DNA of 64,000 nucleotides from a virus: the IMG/VR virus record IMGVR_UViG_3300022890_000011, positions 102,602-166,601 of that record. One strand, 5' to 3'. The notes beneath the pieces were generated by a model, which had not been told where the DNA came from, did no database searches, and saw nothing but the letters and a program-made list of their open reading frames with translations. Made by a program: the position numbers and the translations under genes. Of this stretch, positions 5,628 through 59,226 are shown one piece after another. Within the stretch, counting starts at the first letter, position 1. Each line of letters starts with the position of its first letter.

Positions 5628-7907
5628 ATGAAAATAAGCCAAAAAGACCAACAAGACATTCTTGATAAGAATAAAAGATTAGAATCAATTAAACCAATTC
5701 TTAAATCAGAATTTATTGGAATAGATGATGTTATAGATAATATAATTGAATCTATAAGACCATTTTATGTTTTTCCAAAATCTCTTAAAAGACCTTTAGT
5801 GGTTAACTTATGGGGATTAACTGGAACTGGTAAAACATCTATTGTTGATAGAATAGTTGATTTATTAGAATTAAATAATAGATATTCTAAATTTGATGTT
5901 GGTGAATATTCTTCATCTAATTCAGATTGGAAATTAAAACAAGATTTAGGAGAAGCTACTTCTAATATTGATACCAAAAATATGATATTTGCATTTGATG
6001 AGTTTCAACTAGGTAGAACTATTAATGAGATGGGAGCTGAAGTTGATAGAATTGCTTTAAGACCTATGTGGGAAGTTATTGATCATGGAATTATTTACGA
6101 ATTTAATTACTCATATTCACGTGTATTTGATATACTTAAGAAAATAAAACAATGTGCTGATTCTGGTGTAGAGGTTAAAAAAGGTTATGTTGTTAAAAAT
6201 GAACATGTTTATAATTCAGTTTTTAGACGTGAAGAATTAAGACCTTGTGATTTTAAGGTTTGTACATATCAAGAACAAATAGAAGATGAAGATGAAAATC
6301 ATAATCATCCCGATAGAGAACCACCAATAGTTGTTAGTAGAAGTAATAAAATAACAGAAGAAGCTAAAGAGATTAGAATTAATAAAATAGTCGATCCTGA
6401 TTCAGTTTCATCTTATTATTTTGATATTTCAGATGAAGAAATGAAACATTTTGTACAACCTAGAATGATTAAATATTATCATTATTGTAAATTTTATGAA
6501 GCTAACCCTGCATTTTTTGAAAATGAGTTTAATTTTAAAAAACATATTGATAAGTTTAATTTGCCATTTCCATTGTTAATTGAAATGATTAGTAAAAATT
6601 TCATTATGAATTCATCATTAATGAGAAAGAAAGATTTTTCACAATCATTAGTATTTTGTGTTGGTAATGTTGATGAAGCATATACAATGGCTTTTTCTTC
6701 TGATCCTGATGCGGATGCGGATTTATTTTGGGAACATTCTTTAAAGATTAATATTCCTAAAATGAAAAATGCTTTATCTCATAGATTTAGAATGGAACAA
6801 ATTGGTAGATTAGGTAATAATCATATTGTATATCCAGCTCTCAATAAAAATTCTTATGAAAAGATTATTGAACTTTATTTTAACAAAAGAGTTGAACATT
6901 TTGAAGAACAATTTGGAATTAAATTAGAAGTGGATGAAAGTTTAAAAGATATTATGTATAAAGAATCAGTTTTTCCGTCCCAAGGTGTGAGACCAATTTT
7001 ATCATCTTTTAATACATTAGTAGACTCTTATGTTTCAAGATTGATTTCGGATTTAATTTTCCAAAATCCTACATGTGATAAAGTTAACTGGAAATATAGC
7101 AGAAAAGATGAGAAATATATTATTTCATCAACAGGAGAGAAAGAAGAAGTTATTATTGAATATCCAGTTAAACTTAATATTGAAAATTTAAGAGAATCTG
7201 ATTATTCAGAGAATCAAGCATTTACCGCTGTTCATGAAGCTGGTCATGCAGTTATTTCTGTTGTTGCAGCCGATTTAGTTCCAAAAGAAGTTGTTTCTAA
7301 AACAGCATCTATTGCTGAAGGTTTTTGTAGAATTGAATATCCAGAACAAATGACTAGAGATTTATCTATTAAACAAATCAAAGTATTATTAGCTGGTATT
7401 GAATCTGAAAGATTTCTATTTGGTGATGAATTAATTAGTTCAGGTGCTTTTTCTGATTTATCAAGAGCAACTGATTTAGCTGTGTCTATGATTAAAGAAT
7501 TTGGTATGGGCGAAAGTCTTTGTCAAATAAGAGCGACAACAGATTCCACTATGGTTGGTATGAAAGTAATGAGTGAAGATTATGAAGAAGTTATCGCTAA
7601 GATGATTGATGATCTTCAAAAAGATGTTCAAAAATTATTAAAAGATAATGAAGAGTTTTTATTAGAATTGTCTCATTTTTTATCTAATAATTCTAAGATT
7701 GAGAAGGATGAACTAACTAAAATGGCTAAAAAATATCATACAAAATTCAGAGATAAAGATCATTATTATGATTTTAAAGATACTATTAAAACTCGTATGA
7801 ACAAGATTGATATGTCAGAATCACCAGATTCTATTGTTAAAGAACAGATTTATGAGTTTTCTCAAAATAAGAAGAAGAAAAATAATGGAAACGGAAAATC
7901 AAAATAA
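5628..7907 (+). CDS. AAA+ ATPase fused to an M41 (FtsH-type) zinc metalloprotease
   Basis: 759 residues. The N-terminal AAA+ module has Walker A GLTGTGKT at 63-70 and a Walker B-like FAFDEFQ near 121-127, separated from the C-terminus by a long insertion. The C-terminal domain has the zinc-protease motif HEAGH at 536-540 and a downstream GAFSDLSRATDLA that supplies the third metal ligand (Asp) as in FtsH. FtsH unfolds and degrades proteins in an ATP-dependent way. Unlike FtsH I see no N-terminal membrane segments, so this is probably a soluble enzyme. The ATPase part diverges from FtsH enough that an unusual pairing of an AAA+ domain with M41 is likely. Its substrates are unknown. Confidence 0.85.
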   Translation: MKISQKDQQDILDKNKRLESIKPILKSEFIGIDDVIDNIIESIRPFYVFPKSLKRPLVVNLWGLTGTGKTSIVDRIVDLLELNNRYSKFDVGEYSSSNSDWKLKQDLGEATSNIDTKNMIFAFDEFQLGRTINEMGAEVDRIALRPMWEVIDHGIIYEFNYSYSRVFDILKKIKQCADSGVEVKKGYVVKNEHVYNSVFRREELRPCDFKVCTYQEQIEDEDENHNHPDREPPIVVSRSNKITEEAKEIRINKIVDPDSVSSYYFDISDEEMKHFVQPRMIKYYHYCKFYEANPAFFENEFNFKKHIDKFNLPFPLLIEMISKNFIMNSSLMRKKDFSQSLVFCVGNVDEAYTMAFSSDPDADADLFWEHSLKINIPKMKNALSHRFRMEQIGRLGNNHIVYPALNKNSYEKIIELYFNKRVEHFEEQFGIKLEVDESLKDIMYKESVFPSQGVRPILSSFNTLVDSYVSRLISDLIFQNPTCDKVNWKYSRKDEKYIISSTGEKEEVIIEYPVKLNIENLRESDYSENQAFTAVHEAGHAVISVVAADLVPKEVVSKTASIAEGFCRIEYPEQMTRDLSIKQIKVLLAGIESERFLFGDELISSGAFSDLSRATDLAVSMIKEFGMGESLCQIRATTDSTMVGMKVMSEDYEEVIAKMIDDLQKDVQKLLKDNEEFLLELSHFLSNNSKIEKDELTKMAKKYHTKFRDKDHYYDFKDTIKTRMNKIDMSESPDSIVKEQIYEFSQNKKKKNNGNGKSK

Positions 7908-8007
7908 GTTTGATGAAGAAATGAAACATAATCCTATTATATCATTTGAAGATTTGATCCGTCAAGCAAAACATGTTCTAATTGTGGTTCAATCAATAAA
8001 GAATTGA
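7885..8007 (+). CDS. Short gene truncated by fusion to a TnpB remnant
   Basis: The ATG at 7885 lies within the 3' end of the protease gene. The first ~22 residues ([17 protein letters not shown], then IISFEDLI) look like a genuine small acidic protein. From about base 7951 the DNA becomes the 3' end of a tnpB gene read out of frame, so the last ~17 residues are probably not native. The original gene seems to have lost its 3' part when the transposon sequence arrived. Confidence 0.45.
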
Positions 8008-8190
8008 CTTTAAAGGATAGGGAATGGATTTGCTCTAAATGTGGAAAAGAACATGATAGAGATATTAATGCTGCTATAAATATAAGAAATTTTGGGTTGA
8101 GGAACCAACCCAGTGTCACCCAAAGTGAATGGTTACATTGTGCTTGTGGCGTATAAACACATTAGTCTTTAGCTAATGTGTAAGTTCATA
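7951..8190 (+). pseudogene. tnpB 3'-end remnant with right-end hairpin
   Basis: Bases 7953-8156 encode the C-terminal ~67 residues of TnpB: the zinc-finger cysteines (CSNCGS...CSKCG), [15 protein letters not shown], and a final CACGV ended by TAA. The sequence is nearly identical to the 3' end of the intact tnpB at 62828-63994, which reads Glu at the stop position. It is followed by a 9-bp hairpin with loop TCTTTAG (8157-8181) and GTTCATA, as at the intact element. The N-terminal 80% and the left end are missing. It abuts a truncated gene. Confidence 0.88.
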
Positions 8191-8260
8191 AGAGGTTATT
8201 TAGTAGTGAAAGCATAAAACAATAAATACGATTGGGAAAAATTAATAAAAAATATTAATA

Positions 8261-8593
8261 ATGAAAGAAAAAGTAGAAAAATTATTAGGTTTAATAGGTA
8301 ATGAAGATCTTTTCAAAAAATTGAGAGATGAATATTTAAAACATTTAAATGAACAGATAGATGATCCTGAGATATTTGAAGAATTTATGTGTCTTATAAT
8401 AAATGAATTTAAATATGAAACATTCAGAGATGAAACTAGTAAGAATTATATGGAAATTTATACAGAGGAAGAAATGGATTATATGTTGAATTATTATAGT
8501 AGTGATATAGGACAAAGTATAATTGAAAAGAATACTATTATGGTAACAAGAAGTATGACATTGAGCCAAAAGATTGTCGTTAATTTCTTCTAA
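8261..8593 (+). CDS. DUF2059-like protein, 3' end altered
   Basis: 110 residues. The stretch YTEEEMDYMLNYYSSDIGQS (about 67-86) matches the DUF2059 pattern of a Y/F-x-x-x-E-hydrophobic-x-x-hydrophobic-x-x-Y-x-S-x-x-G segment; the family has no established function. The last ~12 residues (TLSQKIVVNFF) are read from the antisense of the neighbouring minus-strand gene, so the natural C-terminus was probably lost at a junction near 8562. The domain call is from memory. Confidence 0.55.
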   Translation: MKEKVEKLLGLIGNEDLFKKLRDEYLKHLNEQIDDPEIFEEFMCLIINEFKYETFRDETSKNYMEIYTEEEMDYMLNYYSSDIGQSIIEKNTIMVTRSMTLSQKIVVNFF

Positions 8594-8836
8594 TTTATCT
8601 AATATCTCTTGACTATTATTATCATTTATTCCACCTGGATTTAACATTTCAATTCTAGTTTCACCTTCTTTTATAGGTAAAAAAAATTGAATAATATCAT
8701 GATAATCTTTTTCTAAAGAATAATATTGTTTAAAATAATTAAGACCTTGTCTTGCTTGCTGTTTACTTAAACCATCGACATTTATATAAAATATAAATAT
8801 TATTTTATCTTTGATTGATTGTTTATTTAAATTCAT
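8345..8836 (-). CDS. Phage hypothetical protein, native only in its N-terminal half
   Basis: The frame is 163 residues, but only the first ~90 (from 8836 down to about 8562) look native: MNLNKQSIKDKIIFIFYINV, then DGLSKQQARQGLNYFKQYY and a PIKEGETRIEMLNPGG segment. The remainder is the reverse complement of the DUF2059-like gene and is not a plausible protein. The NVDGLS...GETR pattern resembles small phage proteins encoded near structural genes. The gene seems to have lost its 3' end in the same rearrangement that altered its neighbour. Confidence 0.5.
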   Translation of the reverse strand: MNLNKQSIKDKIIFIFYINVDGLSKQQARQGLNYFKQYYSLEKDYHDIIQFFLPIKEGETRIEMLNPGGINDNNSQEILDKLEEINDNLLAQCHTSCYHNSILFNYTLSYITTIIIQHIIHFFLCINFHIILTSFISECFIFKFIYYKTHKFFKYLRIIYLFI

Positions 8837-8841
8837 TAATT

Positions 8842-10476
8842 ATGTTTATTTTTATAATAATCATCAATTTTATCAAGAATCATAGCACTAAATATATATT
8901 TGTTACAGGAGGAGTTTCTTCATCATTAGGCAAAGGTATTATTTCTGCATCACTTGCAAAACTTTTACAGGCAAGAGGATATCGGGTTACTATTCAGAAA
9001 CTTGATCCATATATTAATATAGATCCCGGAACTCTTAATCCTTATGAACATGGCGAATGTTTTGTTACTGATGATGGTGCTGAAACAGATCTTGACCTTG
9101 GACATTATGAAAGATTTTTGAATATTAATACTTCACAAGCAAATAATGTTACTACTGGTAGAATTTATCAAACAGTTATTGATAAAGAAAGAAGAGGTGA
9201 TTTTTTAGGAAAAACAGTTCAGATTATACCTCATATTACTGATGAAATAAAAAGAAATATTAAATTTTTAAGTAAAAAACAAAAATATGATTTTATTATT
9301 ACTGAAATAGGTGGTACTGTTGGTGATATTGAATCGTTACCATATATTGAATCATTACGACAGTTAAAATGGGAAATGCCAGGAAATGTCATTACAATAC
9401 ATCTTACTCTTTTACCTTATTTGAATGCAACAGGAGAATTAAAAACAAAACCAACCCAACATTCGGTAAAAACACTTCTCGAAGCAGGGGTACAACCAGA
9501 TATTCTTATATTAAGAACAGAAAAATCGATTAATAATGATATTAGAAAAAAAGTAGCTTTATTTTGCAATGTTGATATTTCTTCTGTAATTGAATCAAAA
9601 GATGTTTCAACTATTTATGAAGTGCCTGTTTTAATGCAAAAAGAAAAATTAGATAGAATAGTACTTTCTAAATTACAAATGCCTTTAAAAGAAGAGCCAA
9701 AACTTACACCATGGAAAGATTTTCTTAAAAAATACAATAACCCAAAAAAAGAAGTTAAAATTGGATTGATTGGTAAATATATTGAACTTGCTGATGCATA
9801 TAAATCAATAATAGAATCTTTTATTCATGCTGGAGCCGAAAATGAATGTCGGGTAAACCTTGAATTAATTAATTCGTCAGATCTAACAAATAACACATAT
9901 TCTAATAAACTAAAAGATTTAAAAGGAATTATAATAGCTCCAGGTTTTGGTCACCGTGGTTTTGAAGGAAAAATCTTAGCTGCAAAATATGCCCGTGAAA
10001 ACAATATTCCTTTTCTTGGTATTTGTTTGGGAATGCAATGTGCAGTTATTGATTTTGCAAGAAATGTGATTGGTTATGAAAAAGCAAACTCTTCTGAAAT
10101 GTCAAGAAATACGTTATATCCGGTTATTGACCTTATGGAAGATCAAAAAGAAATACTTGAGAAAGGTGGAACAATGCGATTAGGATCATTTCCTTGTAAT
10201 ATAAAAAAGAATACAAATGCATATAATGCATATAAAAAGAATAAAATAGTAGAACGTCACCGACATAGATATGAATTTAATAATGCATATTTAAAAGATT
10301 TTGAAAAATCAGGCATGATGTCTACAGGAATAAATCCCGGTACAGGTTTGGTTGAAATTATTGAAATACCAAAACATAAATGGTTTGTTGGTGTTCAGTT
10401 TCACCCAGAATACAGAAGTACGGTTTTAAATCCACATCCATTATTTGTAAATTTTGTAAAAGCAACTTTAAATTGA
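8842..10476 (+). CDS. pyrG: CTP synthase
   Basis: Catalyses ATP-dependent amination of UTP to CTP using glutamine. The synthetase domain begins KYIFVTGGVSSSLGKGI and keeps the P-loop; the C-terminal class I glutaminase domain has the nucleophile Cys in FLGICLGMQ and the His/Glu pair in VQFHPEY. Length from the ATG at 8842 is 544 residues, against about 535-545 for bacterial enzymes. The N-terminus carries an unusual hydrophobic extension (MFIFIIIINFIKNHS) before the conserved start, as if the gene had been joined to unrelated upstream DNA. The sequence resembles Bacteroidota enzymes and is less AT-biased than its neighbours, suggesting acquisition from a host. It would raise CTP supply for phage replication. 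Confidence 0.95.
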   Translation: MFIFIIIINFIKNHSTKYIFVTGGVSSSLGKGIISASLAKLLQARGYRVTIQKLDPYINIDPGTLNPYEHGECFVTDDGAETDLDLGHYERFLNINTSQANNVTTGRIYQTVIDKERRGDFLGKTVQIIPHITDEIKRNIKFLSKKQKYDFIITEIGGTVGDIESLPYIESLRQLKWEMPGNVITIHLTLLPYLNATGELKTKPTQHSVKTLLEAGVQPDILILRTEKSINNDIRKKVALFCNVDISSVIESKDVSTIYEVPVLMQKEKLDRIVLSKLQMPLKEEPKLTPWKDFLKKYNNPKKEVKIGLIGKYIELADAYKSIIESFIHAGAENECRVNLELINSSDLTNNTYSNKLKDLKGIIIAPGFGHRGFEGKILAAKYARENNIPFLGICLGMQCAVIDFARNVIGYEKANSSEMSRNTLYPVIDLMEDQKEILEKGGTMRLGSFPCNIKKNTNAYNAYKKNKIVERHRHRYEFNNAYLKDFEKSGMMSTGINPGTGLVEIIEIPKHKWFVGVQFHPEYRSTVLNPHPLFVNFVKATLN

Positions 10477-10550
10477 TAAGAAAAGGAATTGATAAGAGTT
10501 TTTAAACAATAGTTTAAAATTAATATATAAAATAAATTTTTTTAAATTCT

Positions 10551-10580
10551 AAAATTTACTATATTGTAATAGTAAATTTT
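10551..10580. promoter_or_regulatory. Perfect dyad upstream of clpC
   Basis: AAAATTTACTA and TAGTAAATTTT form an 11-bp inverted repeat around the 8-base centre TATTGTAA, 18 bases before the clpC start. There is no T-tract consistent with a simple terminator for the upstream gene, so an operator or mRNA hairpin controlling clpC is plausible. Confidence 0.5.
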
Positions 10581-10597
10581 TAAAATTTTATAATAAT

Positions 10598-12604
10598 ATG
10601 GATGATGTAGAAAATAAAAAATCAAATAAAAACAGTAATTCTGATACACCAACATTAGATTCTTATGGTGTTGACTTGACAAAAGCCGCAATGGAAGATA
10701 GGTTAGACCCCATAATTGGTCGTGAAGTTGAAATTGAAAGATTGGCTCAAATTTTGAGTAGACGCAAAAAGAACAACCCAGTATTAATCGGGGAGCCTGG
10801 AGTTGGTAAAAGTGCCATAGTAGAGGCTTTGGCTATTAGAATCATAAATAAAAAAGTGTCAAGAGTTCTTTTTGATAGAAAAGTCATGACTTTAGATTTA
10901 GCTTCAGTTATTGCTGGTACTAAATATAGAGGTCAATTTGAAGAAAGGATGAAGGCTATCTTAGATGAATTATCAAAAAATGAGGATGTAATATTATTTA
11001 TTGATGAAATACATACAATAGTTGGAGCAGGTGGTGCATCTGGTTCACTTGATGCTGCAAATATGTTAAAACCAGCTCTTGCTAGAGGTGATATTCAATG
11101 TATTGGTGCAACGACATTAGATGAATATAGACAACATATTGAAAAAGATGGAGCGTTGGAGAGAAGATTTCAAAAAATAATGGTAGAGCCAACTTCTTCT
11201 GAAGAAACAGTTGAAATACTTCATAAAATTAAAGAAAGATATGAAGATCATCATAATGTAGAATATACTGATGAAGCATTAGAAGCTTGTGTTAAATTAA
11301 CTAATAGGTATATTACAGATAGATGTTTACCTGATAAAGCTATTGATGCTCTTGATGAGGCTGGTTCTAGAGTACATATTTCTAATATTGTTGTTCCTCA
11401 ATCTATTTTGGATCTTGAATCTGAATTAGAAATAGCTAAAAAAGATAAATTAGAAGCAGTTAAAGCTCAGAAGTTTGAAGATGCTGCAGAGGCTCGTGAT
11501 TATGAAAAAGATATTTTAAGTGATATTAAATCTGAAAAAATAGAATGGGAAAAAGAACTTTCAAAAAATAAAGAAAAAGTTGACGAACATGATATTGCTG
11601 AAGTTGTTGCGATGATTACTGGTGTTCCAGTTAATAGAATTGCTCAATCAGAAGGTAATAAACTAGTAAAAATGGATGTAGACCTTAAAGGTAAAATTAT
11701 TGGTCAAGATGAAGCACTAAGTAAAATTGTTAAATCTATTAAGAGAAATAGATCTGGGTTGAAAGATCCAAATAAACCAATTGGTACATTTGTATTCTTA
11801 GGTCCTACAGGGGTTGGGAAAACGTGGTTAGCTAAAGTATTATCTGAATATTTATTTGATAGTAAAGATGCTTTAATTAGAATTGATATGAGTGAATATA
11901 TGGAGAAGTTTGCAGTTTCAAGATTAGTTGGTGCTCCTCCAGGATATGTTGGTTATGAAGAAGGCGGACAATTATCTGAGAAAGTTCGTAGAAAGCCATA
12001 TTCTGTTGTGTTATTAGATGAAATTGAAAAGGCACATCCAGATGTATTTAATATTTTACTTCAAATTTTAGATGAAGGTAGATTAACTGATAGTTCTGGT
12101 AGAAGAATTGATTTTAGAAATACATTGATTATAATGACTTCTAATATTGGTACTAGACAATTAGCTGAACATGAAGGTGGTGGTATCGGTTTTGATACAA
12201 AAGCAAAATTAGAAGGTAAAGAATCACATAATAATAGTGTTGTACAGAGTGCTTTGAAAAAAGCTTTTGCACCAGAATTTCTAAATAGATTAGATGATGT
12301 AGTTGTATTTAATTCATTGGATATAAATAGTATTAAAGATATTATTGAAATTGAATTAGAGGGTTTATATTCTAGAGTTGAAGAACTTGGTTATAAAGTT
12401 AAATTGTCACCGAAAGCAAAAGATTATATTTGTGAAAAAGGATTTGATCCTAAATATGGTGCTAGACCTTTAAAAAGAGCAATACAAAAATATTTAGAAG
12501 ATAAATTAGCAGAAACTCTAATATCTACAAATATTAAGCAAGGTTCTACTATTTCAGTTGGATATAGTAAGAAAAATGATGAAATAACAATTAATGTAAA
12601 GTAG
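10598..12604 (+). CDS. clpC: ClpC-type AAA+ unfoldase without N-domain
   Basis: 668 residues with two AAA+ modules: Walker A GEPGVGKS at 65-72 and GPTGVGKT at 402-409. Walker B segments ILFIDEIH and VLLDEIEKAH are present. Between them is a short middle region with a UVR-like helix (EAVKAQKFEDAAEARDYEKD), as in ClpC rather than ClpB. The usual N-terminal Clp_N repeat domain is missing; the protein starts only ~38 residues before the first AAA+ domain. An IGF loop (530-532) matches the tripeptide that docks ClpA/ClpC/ClpX onto ClpP, and a clpP gene lies at 25506. I infer a phage ClpCP protease with altered substrate selection. Confidence 0.9.
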   Translation: MDDVENKKSNKNSNSDTPTLDSYGVDLTKAAMEDRLDPIIGREVEIERLAQILSRRKKNNPVLIGEPGVGKSAIVEALAIRIINKKVSRVLFDRKVMTLDLASVIAGTKYRGQFEERMKAILDELSKNEDVILFIDEIHTIVGAGGASGSLDAANMLKPALARGDIQCIGATTLDEYRQHIEKDGALERRFQKIMVEPTSSEETVEILHKIKERYEDHHNVEYTDEALEACVKLTNRYITDRCLPDKAIDALDEAGSRVHISNIVVPQSILDLESELEIAKKDKLEAVKAQKFEDAAEARDYEKDILSDIKSEKIEWEKELSKNKEKVDEHDIAEVVAMITGVPVNRIAQSEGNKLVKMDVDLKGKIIGQDEALSKIVKSIKRNRSGLKDPNKPIGTFVFLGPTGVGKTWLAKVLSEYLFDSKDALIRIDMSEYMEKFAVSRLVGAPPGYVGYEEGGQLSEKVRRKPYSVVLLDEIEKAHPDVFNILLQILDEGRLTDSSGRRIDFRNTLIIMTSNIGTRQLAEHEGGGIGFDTKAKLEGKESHNNSVVQSALKKAFAPEFLNRLDDVVVFNSLDINSIKDIIEIELEGLYSRVEELGYKVKLSPKAKDYICEKGFDPKYGARPLKRAIQKYLEDKLAETLISTNIKQGSTISVGYSKKNDEITINVK

Positions 12605-17100: not shown

Positions 17101-17928
17101 TTAAGGTTTCCATTCTTTAATATTATCGTCCAATTTTGTTAATATTTTTCTACATTTGTATCCTTTGTAAGTGTTTGTTTTACCAGTTGAACAACTATAA
17201 AGTGCAGTTGCATGTAATTTAATATCAGTATAATCTTTACAAAATTCACTAACTTTTATTTTATATTCCTTTCCATTTGGAAATGTAATAATATAGAATT
17301 TAGTGTTTTTGTAGTAAGGATTATTTTTACCTTTTAAGTGTTTTTCTATATAATTATTTTTTTCATCTTTTGAAGCCTTATTTATCCAACATTTATCTTT
17401 TAATTCCTGTTCTGATAATTTTTTTTGATAATTATTATCACCAGTAATATTATTAAGCCATAATTCCCTTTCTTCTTTTGACATTCTTTTTGAAAAATGT
17501 TTTTCTCCTGAAACAAGGTGACCATTTTTATACATACCATTATTCTCACCATATCTATATTTTATTAACCATTTTTTACGTTCTTCTTCAGATAGCCTTG
17601 ATAGCCAGTGATTTTCGCCAACTGAACCATAATTACACAAACCACCTTCTGTTAAATTGTATCCATTTTTATTAGGTGCATATGAATTATATTTTTTGAT
17701 ATAATAGATTTCTCGTTCTTCTAATATATCACTATCGCATTCTTCTACAACTTCCCATTTAAAATTTTCAACACCATATTTAATTAAAGCTTTATGAAAA
17801 ATAGAAAATTTTACACCACTTTTAGCTTCTTTAATATGTTCCTTTTTTCTGATTTTAAGAGTTCTGCCTGTTAATCCGATATAATGTTTACCGTTAATGT
17901 TATTAATTACTTTATAGATTATTCCCAT
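17101..17928 (-). CDS. GIY-YIG homing endonuclease with NUMOD3-type repeats
   Basis: 275 residues. The N-terminal nuclease module starts MGIIYKVINNINGKHYIG, giving the GIY-like (IIY) and YIG strands. The conserved Arg follows in RTLKIRKKEH and a downstream NLTEGG carries the catalytic Glu. The C-terminal half has repeated GENHW/GENNGMYKNG/GEKHFSKRMSKEER units, typical DNA-contacting NUMOD3 helices of Seg/I-Tev-like enzymes. It runs opposite to its neighbours, as mobile endonuclease genes often do, and starts 8 bases after the RHH gene's stop. Confidence 0.9.
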   Translation of the reverse strand: MGIIYKVINNINGKHYIGLTGRTLKIRKKEHIKEAKSGVKFSIFHKALIKYGVENFKWEVVEECDSDILEEREIYYIKKYNSYAPNKNGYNLTEGGLCNYGSVGENHWLSRLSEEERKKWLIKYRYGENNGMYKNGHLVSGEKHFSKRMSKEERELWLNNITGDNNYQKKLSEQELKDKCWINKASKDEKNNYIEKHLKGKNNPYYKNTKFYIITFPNGKEYKIKVSEFCKDYTDIKLHATALYSCSTGKTNTYKGYKCRKILTKLDDNIKEWKP

Positions 17929-23350: not shown

Positions 23351-23485
23351 GAGGTTTCAAAATATTTCATTTATTTTTAGCATAAAACACACAAGTCTTT
23401 AAATTGTATGATATAAGCGTTTTCAAAATGGCAAAAAGCCATTATATTTTATTTATATATATTATTATAAATAAAGTTGTATAAA

Positions 23486-24700
23486 ATGAAAAAATGTTAT
23501 TCTATAAGATTATTTCCTACAAATAAACAGATAAATCAATTAACTGAATTGTCTGTTATAAGAAAAGATATATGGAATAAACTTTTAGAAATTGAACAAA
23601 ACGAATACAAAACCAATAAATTAATTCTAAATAAATTTGACCTAAATAATTTGTTACCTAAATTAAAAGAAAAATACCCAGAATGGAAAAAATTAAACTC
23701 AAAAGCAATACAAACAATTGCAACTGAATTATATGGCTCTTATAGATCATTTTTTAATTTAATAAAAAAAGATAAAAATGCAAGACCACCAAGAGAAATA
23801 TCAATTGAAGATTATCATACAATTGCCTGGAATCAATCTGGTTGGATGATTAAAGAAAATAATAAAATTATAATCAATAAAATACCATTCAATTATAAAT
23901 CAAAAATAGATATAAAAGAATTAAATATAAAAGAAATAAGAGTTAAATATGTTAGAAATAAATGGTTGTGTGATTTAATTGTCGAAGAACCAATAAAATA
24001 TGAAGACAAATTAAATATAAAAACAAGAGTTTTAGCAGTTGATTTAGGTTTAATTAAATTGGGAACAGGTGTTAGTAATGATGGTGAAGTCGTTGTTTTA
24101 AAAAATAAATCAAAGAAAATAAATGATTACTATCAAAAACAAATAGCAAAAATACAAAACAAGAGAAGTAAAACGAAAAAAGAATCAAATAGGAATAAAA
24201 AGTTAAGAAAAGTGTTAAATAAATGTTATCACAAAAAGAATCAACAAATAAAACAAACTCTACATATTCAGAGTAAAAAGTTATCGAATATGAATTACAA
24301 TACAATTGTAATTGGTGATCTGACAGTTAAAAAATTAATGTCTAAAGAAGGCGTAAATAAAAAGAAGAAGGGAATTAGAAAATCATTTCATAAGTCTAAT
24401 ATCACTATGTTTCTTCAATTTCTTGGATATAAATGTCAATCAAAAAATATCAATTTAACAAAAATTGATGAAAAATGGACAACACAATTAAATTGTTTAA
24501 CTGGAAAATTATTCAAGGAAAAAATAAAACTTGGAGACAGAAAAGTTAAACTATCAGACACTATAATAATAGACCGTGATTTAAATTCAGCCATAAATAT
24601 AATGAAAAGATGGTTTGGAAATCATATTGCTTCTATGAACGAGCCACTTGATTTTTCAAGTGTTATTAAAAAGAATAATCTTTTTAATGAAACATATTAG
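23486..24700 (+). CDS. tnpB: TnpB-family RNA-guided nuclease homologue, atypical active site
   Basis: 404 residues from the ATG at 23486 (MKKCYSIRLFPTNKQ); a TTG at 23477 is in frame. RuvC-I is AVDLGL (Asp186) and RuvC-III is IDRDLNSAIN (Asp363/365). RuvC-II reads VIGDLTVKKL, with Gly277 where most TnpB have the catalytic Glu. The usual four-cysteine zinc finger is replaced by NCLTGKLFKEKIKLGDRKV. It may be a nuclease with a rearranged acidic residue, an inactive guided binder (TldR-like) or a decayed copy. Its stop codon lies in the right-end hairpin, as expected where the guide RNA overlaps the gene's 3' end. Confidence 0.85.
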   Translation: MKKCYSIRLFPTNKQINQLTELSVIRKDIWNKLLEIEQNEYKTNKLILNKFDLNNLLPKLKEKYPEWKKLNSKAIQTIATELYGSYRSFFNLIKKDKNARPPREISIEDYHTIAWNQSGWMIKENNKIIINKIPFNYKSKIDIKELNIKEIRVKYVRNKWLCDLIVEEPIKYEDKLNIKTRVLAVDLGLIKLGTGVSNDGEVVVLKNKSKKINDYYQKQIAKIQNKRSKTKKESNRNKKLRKVLNKCYHKKNQQIKQTLHIQSKKLSNMNYNTIVIGDLTVKKLMSKEGVNKKKKGIRKSFHKSNITMFLQFLGYKCQSKNINLTKIDEKWTTQLNCLTGKLFKEKIKLGDRKVKLSDTIIIDRDLNSAINIMKRWFGNHIASMNEPLDFSSVIKKNNLFNETY

Positions 24701-24716
24701 TCTTTAGCTAATGTGT
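24692..24716 (+). ncRNA. Right-end hairpin, probable part of the TnpB guide (omega) RNA
   Basis: ACATATTAG pairs with CTAATGTGT (one G-U) around TCTTTAG. The same loop and stem layout occurs at 8157-8181 and 63968-63992. In IS605-type elements the guide RNA ends at the right end and carries flanking sequence as guide; that role is inferred. Confidence 0.6.
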
Positions 24717-24750
24717 AGTTCATCACAATTTAATAGTATAAGATTGATTA

Positions 24751-25505: not shown

Positions 25506-26165
25506 ATGAATAGAGATTTTAAAAAATTTGCAAATAGTAAAGGTATTAATAGTATGGTTTTACATGATTTTCAAAGCACATATAATGGATATATTAATCC
25601 AACTATTATGGAAGAAAGACAATTAAATATTACTCAAATGGATGTATTTTCCAGATTGATGATGGATCGGATCATTTTTCTTGGAACTGCAATTGACGAC
25701 ACCGTTTCTAATATTATAGTTGCTCAGATGTTATATTTAAGTAGTGGTGAAGATGGTGATATTAAATTGTATTTAAATACACCAGGTGGTGGAGTTTACT
25801 CTGGATTAGCAATTAAAGATACTATGGATATTATTGGTTGTGATGTAGAAACTGTTGTTTCTGGTATGGCTGCATCTATGGGATTTATTTTAGCTGTTAG
25901 TGGTGCAGAAGGTAAAAGAAGTGCTTTAAAACATTCAAGATTGATGCAACATCAACCATTGGGTGGTGCTCAAGGTCAAGCATCTGATATTGCTATTGTT
26001 GCTAAACAGATTGATTTGTTAAAAAATGAATTGTATCAAATTATTTCAGAAAGAACTGGACAATCAATGGAAAAAATTATAAAAGATGCTGATAGAGATC
26101 ATTGGATGACTTCAATAGAGGCTAAAGAATATGGTGCAATTGATAATGTAATTGGAATGAAATAA
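25506..26165 (+). CDS. clpP: ClpP serine protease
   Basis: 219 residues. The catalytic Ser124 lies in SGMAASMGF, His149 in LMQHQPLGG and Asp198 in ADRDHWM, with the oxyanion strand NTPGGGVYSG (91-100). ClpP forms a tetradecameric chamber that degrades proteins fed by a Clp ATPase. The ClpC at 10598 has a matching IGF docking loop. The N-terminus is longer than that of mature bacterial ClpP and may be processed. The stop overlaps the ATG of the next gene by one base. Confidence 0.95.
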   Translation: MNRDFKKFANSKGINSMVLHDFQSTYNGYINPTIMEERQLNITQMDVFSRLMMDRIIFLGTAIDDTVSNIIVAQMLYLSSGEDGDIKLYLNTPGGGVYSGLAIKDTMDIIGCDVETVVSGMAASMGFILAVSGAEGKRSALKHSRLMQHQPLGGAQGQASDIAIVAKQIDLLKNELYQIISERTGQSMEKIIKDADRDHWMTSIEAKEYGAIDNVIGMK

Positions 26166-48842: not shown

Positions 48843-49211
48843 ATGAAATATTTAAAAACATTTGAAAATGATCAATTGAATTTATCCTTTAATATTTGGT
48901 TTGATTTAATCGAAATATCTAATAAATTATATAATAAATATTGGAAATATGATTCAGTTGAAGATATTGATATGGTTAAAATCAAACTTGAAAATACAAT
49001 TTTTGTAAATATTTTTAAATTCAATGAAATAGAATTATGGAAATGGAAACATACTGACCCAGAATTATATATAAATATAACCAATGATGGTACTAATTCT
49101 ACCACTATAAGTAATGTTGATGATCTTGAATTAAATGATAAAATACATGATGTTTTGAAAGATCCAAATACAATAATAAAACTAGAAGCAAATAAAATGG
49201 GTTTATTATAA
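48843..49211 (+). CDS. Tagged NKMGLL-family protein
   Basis: 122 residues beginning MKYLKTFENDQLNLSFNIWF and ending LEANKMGLL. Both family signatures are present. The middle is strand/helix mixed with Asn/Asp-rich loops. Candidate head-packaged protein of unknown function. Confidence 0.7.
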   Translation: MKYLKTFENDQLNLSFNIWFDLIEISNKLYNKYWKYDSVEDIDMVKIKLENTIFVNIFKFNEIELWKWKHTDPELYINITNDGTNSTTISNVDDLELNDKIHDVLKDPNTIIKLEANKMGLL

Positions 49212-49237
49212 AGAACTTCCCAAGAAAATTTAAATTA

Positions 49238-49900
49238 ATGAATAAATATTATTGTCCTAATTGCAAAACTCAACTTATTAGCAATGAAATAATTATTGTT
49301 GAAGATTGTCTGGAACATGAAAGGCAAACTCCTAAAATGATATGTCCAAATAAAGATTGTGAATGTTGTAAATATAATATGTTTTGGAATGACTATGGTG
49401 AGTTTTATTCTGGAGCTAATTTTCGTATTTCTAATAAAATATTTCCAGATCGCAGATATGCTGCATTAAACTCAAATGCTAAAAAATCAGAGGTAGAAAT
49501 ATTTAAAAATGGATTAAAGAGTAAAACTTATTTATCCCCTGTTTTTTGTTTTTATTTGTTACAACCGTTAATTGAACATAATTATAAAGGTGATAATTGG
49601 GGTAATGTGTTAAAAAAGTCATATAGTTTAAAATTTCTAAAGAGAGATGATGGTAGAGGATTTTGTACATATTATACTTTTCCAATAAAGTCTTTATATT
49701 CAAGTATTAGATATTTTCATAGTAATGTTAAATTTTATAAAAAGAATAAGACTAAATATGGTTTAGATCAAGTTCATGATCAATTTAAACCTTTAGGTGA
49801 ATGGGATAAAAGATGGTGGAGAAAGTTATCAAAGTTTTATTCTAAAACATTTTTCAAAAGTTTAAGAAATGAAGTTATAATTAAAAAATTATATGAATAA
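49238..49900 (+). CDS. Zinc-ribbon protein of unknown function
   Basis: 220 residues. CPNC at 6-9 and the later CPNKDCECC give four or more cysteines in the first 45 residues, typical of a zinc ribbon. The rest is basic and aromatic (RRWWR-like WDKRWWRKL near the C-terminus). It might bind DNA or RNA. No catalytic motif. Confidence 0.65.
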   Translation: MNKYYCPNCKTQLISNEIIIVEDCLEHERQTPKMICPNKDCECCKYNMFWNDYGEFYSGANFRISNKIFPDRRYAALNSNAKKSEVEIFKNGLKSKTYLSPVFCFYLLQPLIEHNYKGDNWGNVLKKSYSLKFLKRDDGRGFCTYYTFPIKSLYSSIRYFHSNVKFYKKNKTKYGLDQVHDQFKPLGEWDKRWWRKLSKFYSKTFFKSLRNEVIIKKLYE

Positions 49901-49967
49901 CAAATTTTGTTAATTGTCATTTTCTGACATTTTGTTTTAGATATATAATAAAAACAAAAATTTTAAA

Positions 49968-51017
49968 ATGACTGATAAAAAGAAAATAACTAAGACATAT
50001 TCAATAGAAGAACAAATCTTCAATAGATTTGATGAGATTTGTAGACAAAAAAACATCAATCGCTCTAAGTTCATAGAGAAAAAAATCAACGAATTCATAT
50101 TGGAAAATTGGTCAGTAGATCAAAATAAAATGTACTCATTACCTGGGTCAGATGATTATGTCAAAATTGTCGACACTAATATTGAAAATGGTAATGGTTA
50201 TGTTAAGTTAAATAATGGTAACAAATTAAAATTGGCTGACTTTGAATTAATGTATACTGAAGAAGTAATAGATCCAGATAATTTTTTGAATTTGGGCGCA
50301 TTTAATGAATCACTTATAAGTGCTACTAATGAAATAGAAGTTGATGATTATATTAAAAATGATCATGTGGAAATATTGGCTGAAAATCTTAATAAATCAT
50401 ATTTAAATTCTGACTCATTACCACCAATTAGTGAATTGAATAAAATCAACGATATTAATGTTGAATTGGGTGGTGTTATATTAAATGACGATATTGATCA
50501 AATTGATCCTTCATTTTTAAATAAATCTATGATGTCTATTAATGATATTGAGAAAGTTAAAGAAATTATTGATAAAGTAGATATTAAAGAACATTTAGAA
50601 AATCACGATTATAATGTTAAGATAAAAGTTAATGGTCAAGAAGAATCAGAAAATAATCCATTATTTTATAAAGGTGATTCTGATACAACTTTTGAAGAAT
50701 GGATAAAAGAAAAAAATGAGAATACAATTTTTCCAACACCAACAAATAATATTAAAGAATTGGAAGTTCGTAAGAATAGTGAACCAAAGGAAGAATTGAT
50801 GGATAAATATGAATTCACAGAAGATTTAAAATCTATTTATGTTAAAGATAAAAATAGTAAATATTTTGGAATAGAATATAAATTAGTTGATTTATATAAT
50901 ATTGATGATTTTACTGATCTTACTAAGTTTGAAATGGTGAAATTTGCAATGACACATCCAAAAATAAGAGATAGTTATTTTACTGATTCAAATGGTAGAA
51001 TATTATTTCAAGGATAA
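49968..51017 (+). CDS. RHH-domain protein with a long acidic C-terminal region
   Basis: 349 residues. The first ~50 (ITKTYSIEEQIFNRFDEICR, INRSKFIEKKINEFI) match a ribbon-helix-helix DNA-binding domain. The remainder is acidic, low in aromatic residues and possibly partly unfolded, ending in a small ordered domain (FEMVKFAMTHPKIRDSYFTD). It has a promoter-like region upstream (ttttctgacattttgtttta). A large RHH regulator or partition-like protein is possible. Confidence 0.65.
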   Translation: MTDKKKITKTYSIEEQIFNRFDEICRQKNINRSKFIEKKINEFILENWSVDQNKMYSLPGSDDYVKIVDTNIENGNGYVKLNNGNKLKLADFELMYTEEVIDPDNFLNLGAFNESLISATNEIEVDDYIKNDHVEILAENLNKSYLNSDSLPPISELNKINDINVELGGVILNDDIDQIDPSFLNKSMMSINDIEKVKEIIDKVDIKEHLENHDYNVKIKVNGQEESENNPLFYKGDSDTTFEEWIKEKNENTIFPTPTNNIKELEVRKNSEPKEELMDKYEFTEDLKSIYVKDKNSKYFGIEYKLVDLYNIDDFTDLTKFEMVKFAMTHPKIRDSYFTDSNGRILFQG

Positions 51018-51019
51018 AT

Positions 51020-51060
51020 AATTTGATTTTTTATTTTTAGAAAAATTTTGTATATTTAAA
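51020..51060 (+). promoter_or_regulatory. Candidate promoter
   Basis: tttttagaaaaattttgtat followed by atttaaa stands after the 3' end of the RHH gene, ~90 bases before the next ATG. It has the recurrent A4T4-N2-TATATT core. Confidence 0.42.
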
Positions 51061-51144
51061 TAATCAAAAAGATAAATTTTAACTATAAAAGAAAAAGATG
51101 TTTGTCTGAATTGTGAAATTATAAACCCTAAAAAAATTGAAAAT

Positions 51145-51396
51145 ATGTTTACTTTAAGCTCCTTATGGATATTGTTAATAGGAATAATCCCTTTCATTAT
51201 CGCTGTATTTAATAAAAAATCACCTTTTCCAAAAGCTAAAATTTGGAAAATGTTAAAATGGAACTCTGTCATCGGCGTAGGTTACTGGGTACTAGGCTCA
51301 TTACCATTTATTGGTAGTTTGTTTGGACTCGGGTGGATCTTCTTATTAGGATGGGCATTGTTTCCTAATTGGATATTGTTTAAATGGTTAAATTAA
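51145..51396 (+). CDS. Small membrane protein, possibly with upstream zinc ribbon
   Basis: 83 residues with hydrophobic segments at about 5-23 (SSLWILLIGIIPFIIAVFN) and 51-80 (LGSLPFIGSLFGLGWIFLLG). In-frame codons upstream of the ATG (from about 51079) encode KEKDVCLNCEIINPKKIEN without an ATG, so a longer form using another start, or a frameshift, is possible. A holin-like role is conceivable. Convergent with the next minus-strand gene. Confidence 0.6.
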   Translation: MFTLSSLWILLIGIIPFIIAVFNKKSPFPKAKIWKMLKWNSVIGVGYWVLGSLPFIGSLFGLGWIFLLGWALFPNWILFKWLN

Positions 51397-52082
51397 CTAA
51401 TATTATCTAAGTGTTTTAAATACTCTCTGAGTGTTTTAAACACTTTTCCTTTTTTTGCTCTTTTATTATTTTGCTTTATTGCATTATTAATATCATTATA
51501 TTTTCCCGCCAAAGATTCCAATAAATTTAATTTATTTGCACTAATAACGTGAGATTTAATAAATTCATCAACGGTATCATATATTTCCGATAAATATCCT
51601 GTAGATTTTAATTTAGATAATGATATAATAGTATTTTGATAATATAATTGTGATGGTATTATTGATAGATATTTAATTGATGGGTTATATGTAGAACCTC
51701 TTATTTGATCAATATCTAAAGATTCGTAATTATTATTTTTTAAGAATTTAATTAAAGTATCATATTCCTCTTTGTTATTTATTTTAACAACATAGTTATT
51801 CCAACTTGTTGATTCCAATAATCCCATATTTATTCCTTGAAATAATGACTCCAATTCTTCAATTGTTGTAAATGAATCAATTATATTAAAAAGAGCACCT
51901 ATTTTATATTCTGTGAGGAATGTATAATAAAACCATTTTTCAGAAGGTATAATTACAATATAATGTGCATAATCATAATACTTAGAAGACTCATTATTTT
52001 GATAATCTTGTTTTAATAAATAATCTGTGTATAAAACAAGATCTTTTTTATTATCTATTTTTATTAAATATGCACTTTTCAT
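51393..52082 (-). CDS. Tandem-domain NKMGLL-family protein
   Basis: 229 residues made of two related halves. The first (AYLIKIDNKKDLVLYTDYLL to FQGINMGLLES) and the second (NYVVKINNKEEYDTLIKFLK to SANKLNLLESL) each start with a strand-rich segment and end in the family signature. This shows that the C-terminal motif is part of a repeated domain of ~95 residues. It lacks the N-terminal tag. A basic helical tail follows (NKRAKKGKVFKTLREYLKHL). It abuts the next tagged gene. Confidence 0.68.
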   Translation of the reverse strand: MKSAYLIKIDNKKDLVLYTDYLLKQDYQNNESSKYYDYAHYIVIIPSEKWFYYTFLTEYKIGALFNIIDSFTTIEELESLFQGINMGLLESTSWNNYVVKINNKEEYDTLIKFLKNNNYESLDIDQIRGSTYNPSIKYLSIIPSQLYYQNTIISLSKLKSTGYLSEIYDTVDEFIKSHVISANKLNLLESLAGKYNDINNAIKQNNKRAKKGKVFKTLREYLKHLDNIS

Positions 52083-52453
52083 TAAAATAATCCTAAGTTA
52101 ATTTTTGATTTTAATTCTTCGTCAAATTTGATAGTTAATTCAAATATTATTCTATTATCACCTTCTTCATAATCATTTTTTGAAAAACCCATTACTTTTA
52201 AAGATAATTCATATGTTTCAGATATATTTTCGAATCTTTCTTTAATATCAAATAATTCTGATAGTTCATATTCACCGTCTATTTTCCATACAAAATCTAA
52301 TTTTTCTATATCAGAAATTGAGTCAAAAAAATCATAATCTTCTTCATCTTCATAATAGACTGGATAATTTAATAATTGATTTTCAATTATTTTGATAAAT
52401 TTTTTTAAAATTTGTTCGTCTATTTTTTCGTTATATGACTTTAAATATTTCAT
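52082..52453 (-). CDS. Tagged NKMGLL-family protein
   Basis: 123 residues beginning MKYLKSYNEKIDEQILKKFI and ending SKINLGLF. Family tag and C-terminal motif present. Acidic, with a central aromatic patch (YYEDEEDYDFFDSI). ATG/stop overlap of one base with both neighbours in the minus-strand group. Confidence 0.68.
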   Translation of the reverse strand: MKYLKSYNEKIDEQILKKFIKIIENQLLNYPVYYEDEEDYDFFDSISDIEKLDFVWKIDGEYELSELFDIKERFENISETYELSLKVMGFSKNDYEEGDNRIIFELTIKFDEELKSKINLGLF

Positions 52454-52861
52454 TATATTAAACCCATTTTATTTCCTTCTACTTGAGATTTACAATCATC
52501 TGATATTAAAAATTCATATATATCATAAGCATATTCTAATAAATTGTATTGTCTAATATCACCTAAACTATATAGTTCACCTTCATCTTCTACTATTGTT
52601 ATATCAGTGTTTTTACGATCTTTATTAATTGTTAATTTGTTAAAATGTTCAATATCTATTAATAAAGTTAAATGTGTTCCCTCACCTATATATTTCTCAC
52701 ATAATGATTGGATATTTTCTATTAAATCTTCAAGTAATTCTGATCTTTCTTGTATATTGTCGATATTTGAATTCATGTTTAATTATATTGGATTGTAAAT
52801 CTTCAATCTTTTTATCATTCCAATCCTTAAAATCTTCGTTATATTTCTTTAAGTGTTTCAT
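52453..52861 (-). pseudogene. Tagged NKMGLL-family gene split by a frameshift
   Basis: A minus-strand ATG at 52861 opens a frame MKHLKKYNEDFKDWNDKKIE that runs to 52730. A second frame from 52776 (MNSNIDNIQERSELL) encodes the rest and ends EGNKMGLI at 52453. The two overlap and differ by one base around 52777-52785, so a single protein of about 135 residues has probably been split. The ATG overlaps the upstream gene's stop (ATGA), showing that 52861 is the real start. Confidence 0.6.
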
Positions 52862-53184
52862 AATAGTCCCATCTTTAAAGATTCTATCATATCTTTATTT
52901 ATTTTTGATAAAGAAAAAATTAATATTAGATAAATTGCTTCAAGACCAACATCAATTTCAATTTCAACATTAAAAATTTCACGTAAATTATTTAGTTTAT
53001 TTAAATAATCATCCTTTGTTAAATAAATAATATCAGGATCTCTAAAATTAATAGATATAACAAAATTATCATTAGAATTTAAATAACTATTAAAACCTTT
53101 ATTAAATATCTTTTTAACGTAATTTTTAAGAGGTTCTTGAAAATAATCCCAACTAGATTCATTGTATTTATTTAAGTGTTTCAA
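52858..53184 (-). CDS. Tagged NKMGLL-family protein
   Basis: 108 residues beginning MKHLNKYNESSWDYFQEPLK and ending MIESLKMGLL. The tag is followed by an E-S junction (YNE before S), similar to a T4-type prohead protease site. No enzymatic motif. It starts the minus-strand run 53184 to 51393. Confidence 0.7.
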   Translation of the reverse strand: MKHLNKYNESSWDYFQEPLKNYVKKIFNKGFNSYLNSNDNFVISINFRDPDIIYLTKDDYLNKLNNLREIFNVEIEIDVGLEAIYLILIFSLSKINKDMIESLKMGLL

Positions 53185-53250
53185 AAACTGATACTATTTT
53201 TTGGTATATATAAATTTTTAAATGTAAAAGAAAATTCTTATATTACTTGG

Positions 53251-54000
53251 ATGAATAAAAATGCAAAAATATTAATAATCCCTGATTGCCACGGTCATGA
53301 TACATTCAAGCAATCACTTAAAAATAATAATATTGATAAGTATGATTTAGTTATTTTTCTTGGTGATTATTGTGATAGTTTTACTCTTGATAATATTACA
53401 ATTAAGAATAATTTATTAGATATAATTCAACTTAAAAAAGATTATCCAGATAAAGTAGTTCTTTTATGGGGTAATCATGAGATGCATTATTATTTAGGTA
53501 GAAGTTTTAAATGCACAGGTTTTAGATCTGAGGCTTATTTTGATTTGAATGAAATATTTGTTAAAAATAGTGATTTATTTCAAACTGCTTTTCAGTTAGA
53601 CACAAAAGATGGTGACAAATATTTGTTTAGTCATGCAGGTGTTGAACAGGGGTGGTATGATGAACATATAAAAGAACATTTCACATATGATATGGCATTT
53701 ACATTAAATATGTTATTTGAACAAAATTATAAACCAATTTTTGATGTTGGTCGAGGAAGAGGCGGTTTCAAAAGAGTTGGTGGTGTGTTATGGGCTGATT
53801 ATCATGAATTATATCAAAGTCCCATTAAGGGTTATAATCAAATAGTTGGACATACTTATTTAAAAGATGGTTTTAGATTGATGAAATGGGATGATGGTAG
53901 ATTTGTTCATTTTATTGATGGTCCACCATATTATTTAGAAATGGAAATTGAGAATGTTATCTCTTGGGAATTGTTTAATGACCAGGAAATCCAAGATTAA
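53251..54000 (+). CDS. Calcineurin-like metallophosphatase
   Basis: 249 residues from the ATG at 53251 (MNKNAKILIIPDCHGHD). Motifs: D-x-H in PDCHGH, GD in FLGDYCD, GNHE in LWGNHEMHY, then FSHAG and IVGHTY, all expected for a PPP-type phosphoesterase binding two metals. A paralogue lies at 56880. Substrate unknown; protein phosphatases, nucleotide or RNA 2',3'-cyclic phosphodiesterases share the fold. The ORF's upstream extension to 53176 crosses a promoter-like region and is not favoured. Confidence 0.85.
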   Translation: MNKNAKILIIPDCHGHDTFKQSLKNNNIDKYDLVIFLGDYCDSFTLDNITIKNNLLDIIQLKKDYPDKVVLLWGNHEMHYYLGRSFKCTGFRSEAYFDLNEIFVKNSDLFQTAFQLDTKDGDKYLFSHAGVEQGWYDEHIKEHFTYDMAFTLNMLFEQNYKPIFDVGRGRGGFKRVGGVLWADYHELYQSPIKGYNQIVGHTYLKDGFRLMKWDDGRFVHFIDGPPYYLEMEIENVISWELFNDQEIQD

Positions 54001-54017
54001 AAAGTCTTGGATTTTTT
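53987..54017 (+). terminator. Intrinsic terminator after the phosphatase gene
   Basis: AAATCCAAGA and TCTTGGATTT form a perfect 10-bp stem with an 8-base loop, followed by a T run. The stem overlaps the stop codon of the phosphatase gene. Confidence 0.85.
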
Positions 54018-54063
54018 GTTTATATTTGAATTTTAGTTTTTAATATATAAAATAAATGATTGA

Positions 54064-55566
54064 ATGAACATGTTGAAACACAAGTTATTTCAAATATTAT
54101 TAGGATTAACTACATTATTATTAGCTTCTTGTGTTGCATATATTTCGGTTATAGGATTGGTAAAAATATATGCTGGTGTTGGAATTTTAGGTATTGTTAT
54201 ATTTTCAATAATTGAGTTATCAAAAATTGTTGGTGTTACTTATATTCAGAGGTATTGGAAATATTTAACAAATATTAAGAAGTTTATATATATATTACTA
54301 GTTGTTGGTGTTATGGCTATAACATCCTTTAGTGTTTATGGGTTTCTTATGGGTTCTTATCAAGCTACATCAACTAATTTAAATCATATTAATAGTAAAG
54401 TTCAAGTAATAGAAACAAAGAAAGAATATTTAAATAAAGAAATTGGAGGTTTTGAAAAACAGATTAATTTTAGAGATAAGAGAATTAATAGTTTATCAGA
54501 ATTAAGATCACAACAAGAAGTCAGACTTGATACGTTATACCAAAGAAAAGATTGGAAATCTTATCAACAAGCCAAAGATGTAGAAAAAACTATTAAAGAA
54601 GCAAATAATGATATTGATTTATTAAATGTTGAAATTAGTAAATTTAATGGTAAAATTAGTTTATTAACGGATTCTATTTCTAATTATGAAATTCAAATTA
54701 TTGATCTTCAAGATAATGATTATATTTCTGATTTAGGGCCATTGTTATATTTATCTAAAATGACTGGAAAAGACATGGATAAGTTAATAAATATACCAAC
54801 AATTGTTATGATATTTTTATTAGACCCATTTGCTATAGCATTATTAATAGCATTCAACCATATAGGTATAATTGTTGTGAGGTTAAAAAGAGGTGAGAAA
54901 GATGAATTTAAAAAGAAAAAGCCTAAGAAACAAACTGTTGAGATTGTTGAAGAAGATGTATTTGAAGAAGAACCTAAACCAGAAAGAATACCAGAAGACA
55001 TTGAAGAGGAAAATGAAGTTGATATTTTTATAAAGGAGATAGAAAATACACCTGATTTGAATGATATGCTTAATAAGTTATGTGAAAACCCTAGTAATAT
55101 AAATGAACATTTATTGACATTAAAGAAATATGCCAGTAATAGTGATCATATAACAGAATTGAGAACTGACTCTCCAAATTCAATATTTGCTTTATTAGCT
55201 GGTAAACCAAATAAACTTATAAGTTATGATAAGATTTATCATAGAAATATTATAAAGGCAGAAGAAATTGCAAAATTAGAGGGTATAGAATTTGTTTTTG
55301 TACAAAAGAGTGTTATAGAAGATGATATAAAAGATTTTGAACAAACAGATTTATTATTTATTGATGTAGGTTATGATTATAATCAATTAATTAGAAAATT
55401 GTCTATTTTACAAGAAAAAGTTAATAAATTTATTATAATTCATGATACAGAAACAGAAGATATTTGGAAAGCAATAGAAGAGTTTATAAAAACAAATGAT
55501 TCATGGGTTATTAATAAGATTTATAAAAATAATAATGGATTGGTAATTTTAAAAAATAAGAAATAA
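54064..55566 (+). CDS. Membrane/coiled-coil protein fused to a methyltransferase-like domain
   Basis: 500 residues. Four likely transmembrane segments: about 8-30, 35-55, 75-98 and 245-270. Between the third and fourth is a ~130-residue coiled coil (LRSQQEVRLDTLYQRKD etc.). After an acidic linker (EEDVFEEEPKPERIPED) the C-terminal ~170 residues have ELRTDSPNSIFALLAGKPNK, DLLFIDVGYDYNQL, KFIIIHDTE and NNNGLVIL. This order resembles class I SAM-dependent methyltransferases of the CmcI/Methyltransf_24 type. The metal/SAM-binding DTYH seen in those is here DVGY, so activity is doubtful. I know of no named family with this architecture. Confidence 0.65.
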   Translation: MNMLKHKLFQILLGLTTLLLASCVAYISVIGLVKIYAGVGILGIVIFSIIELSKIVGVTYIQRYWKYLTNIKKFIYILLVVGVMAITSFSVYGFLMGSYQATSTNLNHINSKVQVIETKKEYLNKEIGGFEKQINFRDKRINSLSELRSQQEVRLDTLYQRKDWKSYQQAKDVEKTIKEANNDIDLLNVEISKFNGKISLLTDSISNYEIQIIDLQDNDYISDLGPLLYLSKMTGKDMDKLINIPTIVMIFLLDPFAIALLIAFNHIGIIVVRLKRGEKDEFKKKKPKKQTVEIVEEDVFEEEPKPERIPEDIEEENEVDIFIKEIENTPDLNDMLNKLCENPSNINEHLLTLKKYASNSDHITELRTDSPNSIFALLAGKPNKLISYDKIYHRNIIKAEEIAKLEGIEFVFVQKSVIEDDIKDFEQTDLLFIDVGYDYNQLIRKLSILQEKVNKFIIIHDTETEDIWKAIEEFIKTNDSWVINKIYKNNNGLVILKNKK

Positions 55567-55577
55567 TCAAGATCTAA

Positions 55578-56395: not shown

Positions 56396-56408
56396 AAATT
56401 ATTATTTT

Positions 56409-56804: not shown

Positions 56805-56879
56805 TATGTAAATTTTAATTTTTTTAAAATATTTATGTTATATTGTGTATATATTAAAATAAATTCTTTAATCTAAAAA

Positions 56880-59199: not shown

Positions 59200-59226
59200 A
59201 GTTTATAGTTTATAGTTTATTTTTTA

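Follow-up and report, generated by a model that had tools for sequence, protein, structure and literature searches.

A finger-less, phage-borne TnpB whose RuvC triad is probably completed by a relocated glutamate

The window analysed here, a 64,000-nucleotide stretch of a phage record in IMG/VR, carries on its + strand at 23486–24700 (ATG at 23486, stop codon ending at 24700) an uninterrupted tnpB reading frame of 404 codons, identified from Pfam, NCBIfam and PHROG matches, alignments, and an AF2 model searched with Foldseek. The predicted protein matched both OrfB_IS605 and the Cas12f1-like TNB domain above the Pfam cut-offs, reached 148.8 bits against NCBIfam guided_TnpB (NF040570; cut-off 100) and had PHROG 506 (“transposase”) as its best phage family, in keeping with the intact gene described in an initial annotation made from the letters of the window. 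A second TnpB, canonical in type (RuvC-II CIENL, intact four-Cys finger), is encoded at 62828–63994 (+ strand) near the end of the stretch at 64000. Several other features of the window were seen: a near-identical leader (about MKIRSGFVSNSSSSSF) opens four otherwise different reading frames at 1667, 2631, 4257 and 44948; several small reading frames within 48843–60530 have MKYLKTY-like starts and NKMGLL-like ends in common; genes within 5628–12604, 25506–26165 and 61629–62255 resemble by eye FtsH-like AAA+ protease, CTP synthase, ClpC/B, ClpP and NusG; and a reading frame on the minus strand (17101–17928) resembles by eye a GIY-YIG homing endonuclease.

The initial annotation had further noted that the RuvC-I and RuvC-III Asp residues are present, that RuvC-II reads IVIGDL and that the four-cysteine finger is replaced, and the alignments agree with it on each of these points. 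The two Asp residues are D186 in RuvC-I (AVDLG, i.e., a DLG motif; codon 24041–24043, + strand, counted from the ATG at 23486) and D365 in RuvC-III (DRDLN; 24578–24580, +), while the position of the RuvC-II Glu of canonical TnpBs is occupied by G277 (IVI-G277-DL; 24314–24316, +) and C337 is the sole remaining finger Cys. What had been missed is E329 (IDEKWTTQ; 24470–24472, +), an alternative RuvC-II Glu (Ealt) lying 52 residues past the usual place, by which the alignments give a RuvC D-E-D triad of D186-E329-D365, complete in all relatives of the clade. Gly277 and Glu329 occur together in nine close IMG/VR relatives (71–83% identity) and in further ones down to 49%, E329 being invariant in the finger-less relatives within the context [IVQ]-[DN]-E-x-x-T-T-Q. 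Given that G277, E329 and the loss of the finger are common to the whole clade, they reflect neither chance nor sequencing error. Pairwise dN/dS values of 0.13–0.25 (NG86; 28 pairs from eight members) indicate that tnpB is under purifying selection, consistent with the earlier view that the protein is maintained; within the stretch coding for the guide scaffold, conservation at codon level was not clearly raised any further.

The initial annotation had proposed a structure model as the means of finding a compensating Glu. An AF2 model built from 37 aligned proteins (window and loci) had a mean pLDDT of 86.7 (one built on just 11 close relatives was of poor quality, with a pLDDT of 67.7, and was not used), and its top Foldseek matches in the PDB were ISDra2 TnpB (8h1j; E 1.2e-15) followed by ISFba1 TnpB (8iaz), with mimivirus Fanzor2 (9b0l) in ninth place. 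In this model one strand (residues 273–278) contains G277, strand 5 (323–328) stops directly before E329, and the helix carrying D365 starts at residue 364, so that a shifted Glu occupies the site at the level of sequence and predicted fold. In Fanzors the catalytic Glu has been described on the loop that leads from the fifth strand into the TNB domain, and in SpuFz1 two Mg2+ ions are held at the scissile phosphate by D383, E541 and D606 (PMC11423790). As modelled, E329 occupies the same topological place as this Fanzor Glu. Retained acidic residues alone do not prove catalysis.

The two Glu positions were then compared across 65 distinct TnpBs, among which 40 had only the alternative Glu (Ealt), 23 only the canonical one (Ecan), none had both and two had neither. 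The Fisher test for this swap (p = 1e-15) overstates independence because the 65 sequences are related; what carries weight is that no sequence has Glu at both positions. The canonical TnpBs, the one at 62828–63994 among them, have Glu at the position of residue 277 and Pro, Arg, Thr or other residues at that of 329. The two proteins with neither Glu in register are both from Aquificota (L061 and L063; VLIQ[ED]E and YEATTK), and a shift of the acidic residue by one or two positions may account for them. In GTDB a first scan returned no relatives, and a second yielded chiefly TnpBs from Asgard archaea, of the Ealt type and with the finger intact, plus mixed others. Asgard archaeal and other TnpBs of ~30% identity have the same alternative Glu together with an intact four-Cys finger. 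The distinction between Ecan and Ealt has been described before, Ealt lying six residues ahead of the finger and one Ealt clade having a DPhiG RuvC-I motif (PMC10711439). With the canonical Glu absent and a Glu shortly ahead of the finger position, the TnpB at 23486–24700 shows the published Ealt rearrangement, for which other TnpBs and Fanzors provide precedents.

The zinc finger itself is missing. In ISDra2 TnpB, strand 5 and the last helix flank the TNB domain, which has C331, C334, C351 and C354 (PMC10097598); the corresponding region here (about residues 330–363) has no C4 finger ahead of RuvC-III, its place being taken by the segment NCLTGKLFKEKIKLGDRKVKLSDTIIIDR (codons 336–364; 24491–24577, + strand). 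This segment is conserved as N-[CS]-LTGK-x-F...R-x-V...DRD in the phage clade of the window, has an AF2 pLDDT of about 85–89 and holds one Cys or none, as C337 is Ser in some relatives. Across our sample, which is enriched for the family of the window, the finger was absent from 30 of 40 Ealt proteins and present in 21 of 23 Ecan proteins, the two exceptions being one truncated protein and one with three Cys. Campylobacter phage TnpBs (L024, L073, L074) are likewise Ealt and finger-less. Lokiarchaeal genomes and the crAss-like phage csAssE have Ealt TnpBs of another finger-less type (TS[KR]CSFLDNE ... NADVNGA or similar; L086, L088, L093, L104, L025). This recurrence in other phages and Lokiarchaea, together with the distribution of the finger, shows that its loss is a clade trait rather than damage; the loss may have happened once or more often, as the tree has long branches and weak deep forks. 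Published accounts differ on how general the finger is, one terming it strictly conserved in TnpB (PMC3627910) and a later one placing it in many, not all, TnpBs (PMC10711439). Among solved structures we found none of a TnpB without the finger, and we found no published description of a finger-less phage branch with extra scaffold hairpins in the literature we compared, which did not extend to the PNAS 2023 TnpB census.

A guide-RNA (omega/reRNA) scaffold is predicted at 24635–24723 (+ strand), spanning the last part of the gene and the right end of the element. It is supported by RNA folding (z -5.36) and by covariation, and the predicted guide lies beyond it. The fold comprises a closing stem (ATGAAC at 24635–24640 with GTTCAT at 24718–24723) around three hairpins, i.e., H1 (24645–24662), H2 (about 24665–24688) and H3, the right-end palindrome (about 24692–24716). 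Across 21 loci the covariation score was 0.494, whereas shuffled alignments gave 0.174 and slid controls no more than 0.137; 92% of cells pair, and in 14 of 22 pairs both partners differ in at least some of the loci (the right-end palindrome was omitted from this test, its alignment being gappy). The closing stem pairs 6/6 in 20 of the 21 loci, this copy included, and takes compensated forms (ATGAAC/GTTCAT, ATGAGC/GCTCAT, ATGACA/TGTCAT and CTGACA/TGTCAG). Because its two sides change in step, we place the end of the scaffold at 24723 and the start of the guide at 24724, which makes the predicted guide CACAATTTAATAGTATAAGA (24724–24743, + strand), i.e., flanking DNA directly past the right end. 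The guide matched only its own site within the phage record and had no exact match in IMG/VR; no Rfam model matched the element or the scaffold.

The element ends were only partly as the initial annotation, which had called them conserved, described them. The right end is sound: element and scaffold stop at GTAGTTCAT (24715–24723, + strand, placed by right-end alignment), and the same end family, a hairpin followed by GTAGTTCAT, recurs twice elsewhere in the phage record, namely in the element of the canonical TnpB at 62828–63994 (+ strand; right end CACATCAG-TCTTTAG-CTGATGTG-TAGTTCAT) and in an autonomous tnpA+tnpB element. Right ends in the family consist of a palindrome with GTAGTTCAT or GxATGTCAT/G. 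The left end has decayed, with TTTAT at 23370–23374 followed by an imperfect hairpin (CACACAAG-TCTTTAA-ATTGTATG; 23388–23410, + strand; 6/8 pairs) of -1.3 kcal/mol, compared with -16.9 in the autonomous copy. Five rumen-type relatives (L031, L032, L034, L069, L071) have an exact left boundary, at which TTAC precedes 14 conserved nucleotides, and TTTTAT stands at the same left-end distance (14 nt) in L001, L003, L008 and the canonical TnpB element of the window, while in the copy with tnpB at 23486–24700 TTTAT lies 9, not 14, nt from AAAAC. The putative target motif of the family, TTTTAT/TTTTAC, is taken from these left ends of relatives, which it abuts (0.26% of window positions read TTTTAY). 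Relatives have the hairpin ends, the placement 3' of a short fixed motif and the lack of target duplication expected of IS200/IS605 elements. Flanks differ among lineages. In L071 the element interrupts an isochorismatase-type phage ORF whose frame is continuous without the element and shows no duplication. These observations show IS200/IS605-type mobility of the family, whether present or past. A search of IMG/VR with the upstream gene and the 20-nt guide matched no empty site for the present insertion.

The spacing of TTTAT and the nearly unstable left hairpin suggest that the 23486–24700 copy may no longer move. The element contains no Y1 TnpA and its TnpB type is present as a single copy in the phage record. 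Of 11 phage records with family members (up to 406 kb), only one carries a Y1 TnpA. The phage record of the window harbours the autonomous IS605-type element (L017; G000:C1, about 5778–7560, minus strand), with a divergent Y1 tnpA, a canonical TnpB of 399 amino acids, well-formed hairpins at both ends and the matching end family; its TnpA could provide transposase in trans. Three relatives (L002, L004/L005 and L006/L007) have lost both terminal hairpins and kept tnpB, the closing stem and two scaffold hairpins, and in L002, L004 and L006 the triad is intact, dN/dS is low and the guide scaffold is perfectly paired. We consider it conceivable, if rather doubtful, that TnpB and guide RNA in this part of the clade are uncoupled from transposition and could act between phages as stand-alone homing or anti-competitor RNA-guided nucleases.

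Residues, fold and element features together make it highly probable that the locus encodes an Ealt-type TnpB RNA-guided DNA endonuclease with the triad D186-E329-D365, carried by a phage-borne IS200/IS605-type element with a decaying left end. Since relocation of this kind has precedents in other TnpBs and in Fanzors, the protein is most likely a working nuclease, not a dead one. In this reading the Glu, which canonical TnpBs carry where strand 4 ends (Gly277 here), has shifted to the loop that leads from strand 5 into the TNB domain; that domain keeps its place, with its zinc finger exchanged for a segment that lacks the set of cysteines. Transcripts of the gene 3' end and right end would contain the scaffold, with its closing stem and three hairpins, and behind it a guide derived from the flanking DNA. 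Empty insertion sites flanked by TTTTAT would be cut by the resulting RNP, which would favour keeping or copying the element. For TnpBs in general, guided cutting of empty sites favours retention or copying of the element. Here we infer RNA processing, cleavage and biological role alike. The earlier suggestion of a rearranged nuclease is well supported, E329 being invariant in the clade, exclusive with the canonical Glu and in agreement with PMC10711439 and PMC11423790. What counts against a nuclease is the loss of a finger once termed strictly conserved (PMC3627910).

The other reading of the initial annotation, a protein that still binds DNA under guidance but no longer cuts it, would make it a TldR-like repressor silencing a gene near its target. 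The missing canonical Glu and finger fit such a protein, as do the retained guide scaffold and the loss of both end hairpins in some relatives, but an inactivated RuvC is the defining trait of TldRs (PMC13418256), and those described have fixed targets, whereas every member here has a complete triad through E329, is under purifying selection in the pairs compared, and has a guide and flanks that vary by lineage. Neither the comparison of lineage guides nor the search of the phage record, where the guide matches only its own site, revealed a conserved guide aimed at a regulated gene, and we regard a repressor as very improbable. Even less probable is a decaying, functionless remnant: the eroded left hairpin and the single copy in the phage record point that way, but the reading frame is intact, dN/dS is low, the triad is invariant and the scaffold covaries around a fully paired closing stem.

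Altered chemistry, in which the moved Glu and the lost finger yield a nickase or an enzyme without collateral single-strand cutting, would be compatible with an Ealt-type nuclease, and we hold it as a minority possibility. A repositioned Glu may lower trans-cleavage according to the authors of PMC10711439, SpuFz1 lacks collateral activity (PMC10432273) and the TNB region of a Fanzor touches substrate DNA (PMC11423790), although finger-less and fingered Ealt types have the same triad. The gene shows how an apparently dead RuvC can be misread, and both Glu positions should be checked before any TnpB is called a repressor. The compact finger-less Ealt family of large phages, for which scaffold, guide start and target motif are predicted, makes the dispensability of the zinc finger for guided cutting directly testable.

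Compared with canonical IS200/IS605 TnpBs (ISDra2, 8h1j/8bf8; the 62828–63994 protein), the TnpB studied here is alike in fold, TNB position, D186/D365, right end and guide layout, but has Gly in place of the RuvC-II Glu and no zinc finger, while its scaffold has H1 and H2 in addition, ahead of the right-end hairpin, relative to the autonomous element of the same phage. It resembles TldRs in being TnpB-derived with a guide RNA kept, but the inactivated RuvC and fixed gene targets of TldRs are not seen. Fanzors (SpuFz1; fold match to mimivirus Fanzor2, 9b0l) likewise use a Glu in the loop between strand 5 and TNB as the RuvC-II residue; an assignment to Fanzor or pro-Fanzor, for which DPG in RuvC-I is required along with Ealt, was set aside because the motif here is DLG, and the protein is moreover phage-borne and without a finger. 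Campylobacter phage TnpBs (including ISCaje1 in the CPt10 record) have in common with it Ealt and a finger-less NC[LI]TGK-type segment, but differ in about 28% identity, an insertion in the N-terminal half and the right end. DPhiG Ealt TnpBs (PMC10711439) are alike in the Glu just ahead of the finger position, the D-hydrophobic-G RuvC-I and an IS-type element with guide-RNA scaffold, but the four-Cys finger is absent here and 7, not 6, residues separate E329 from the remaining Cys. The rearrangement itself is thus already known, and the protein is a TnpB, a new member in a finger-less, phage-borne Ealt branch.
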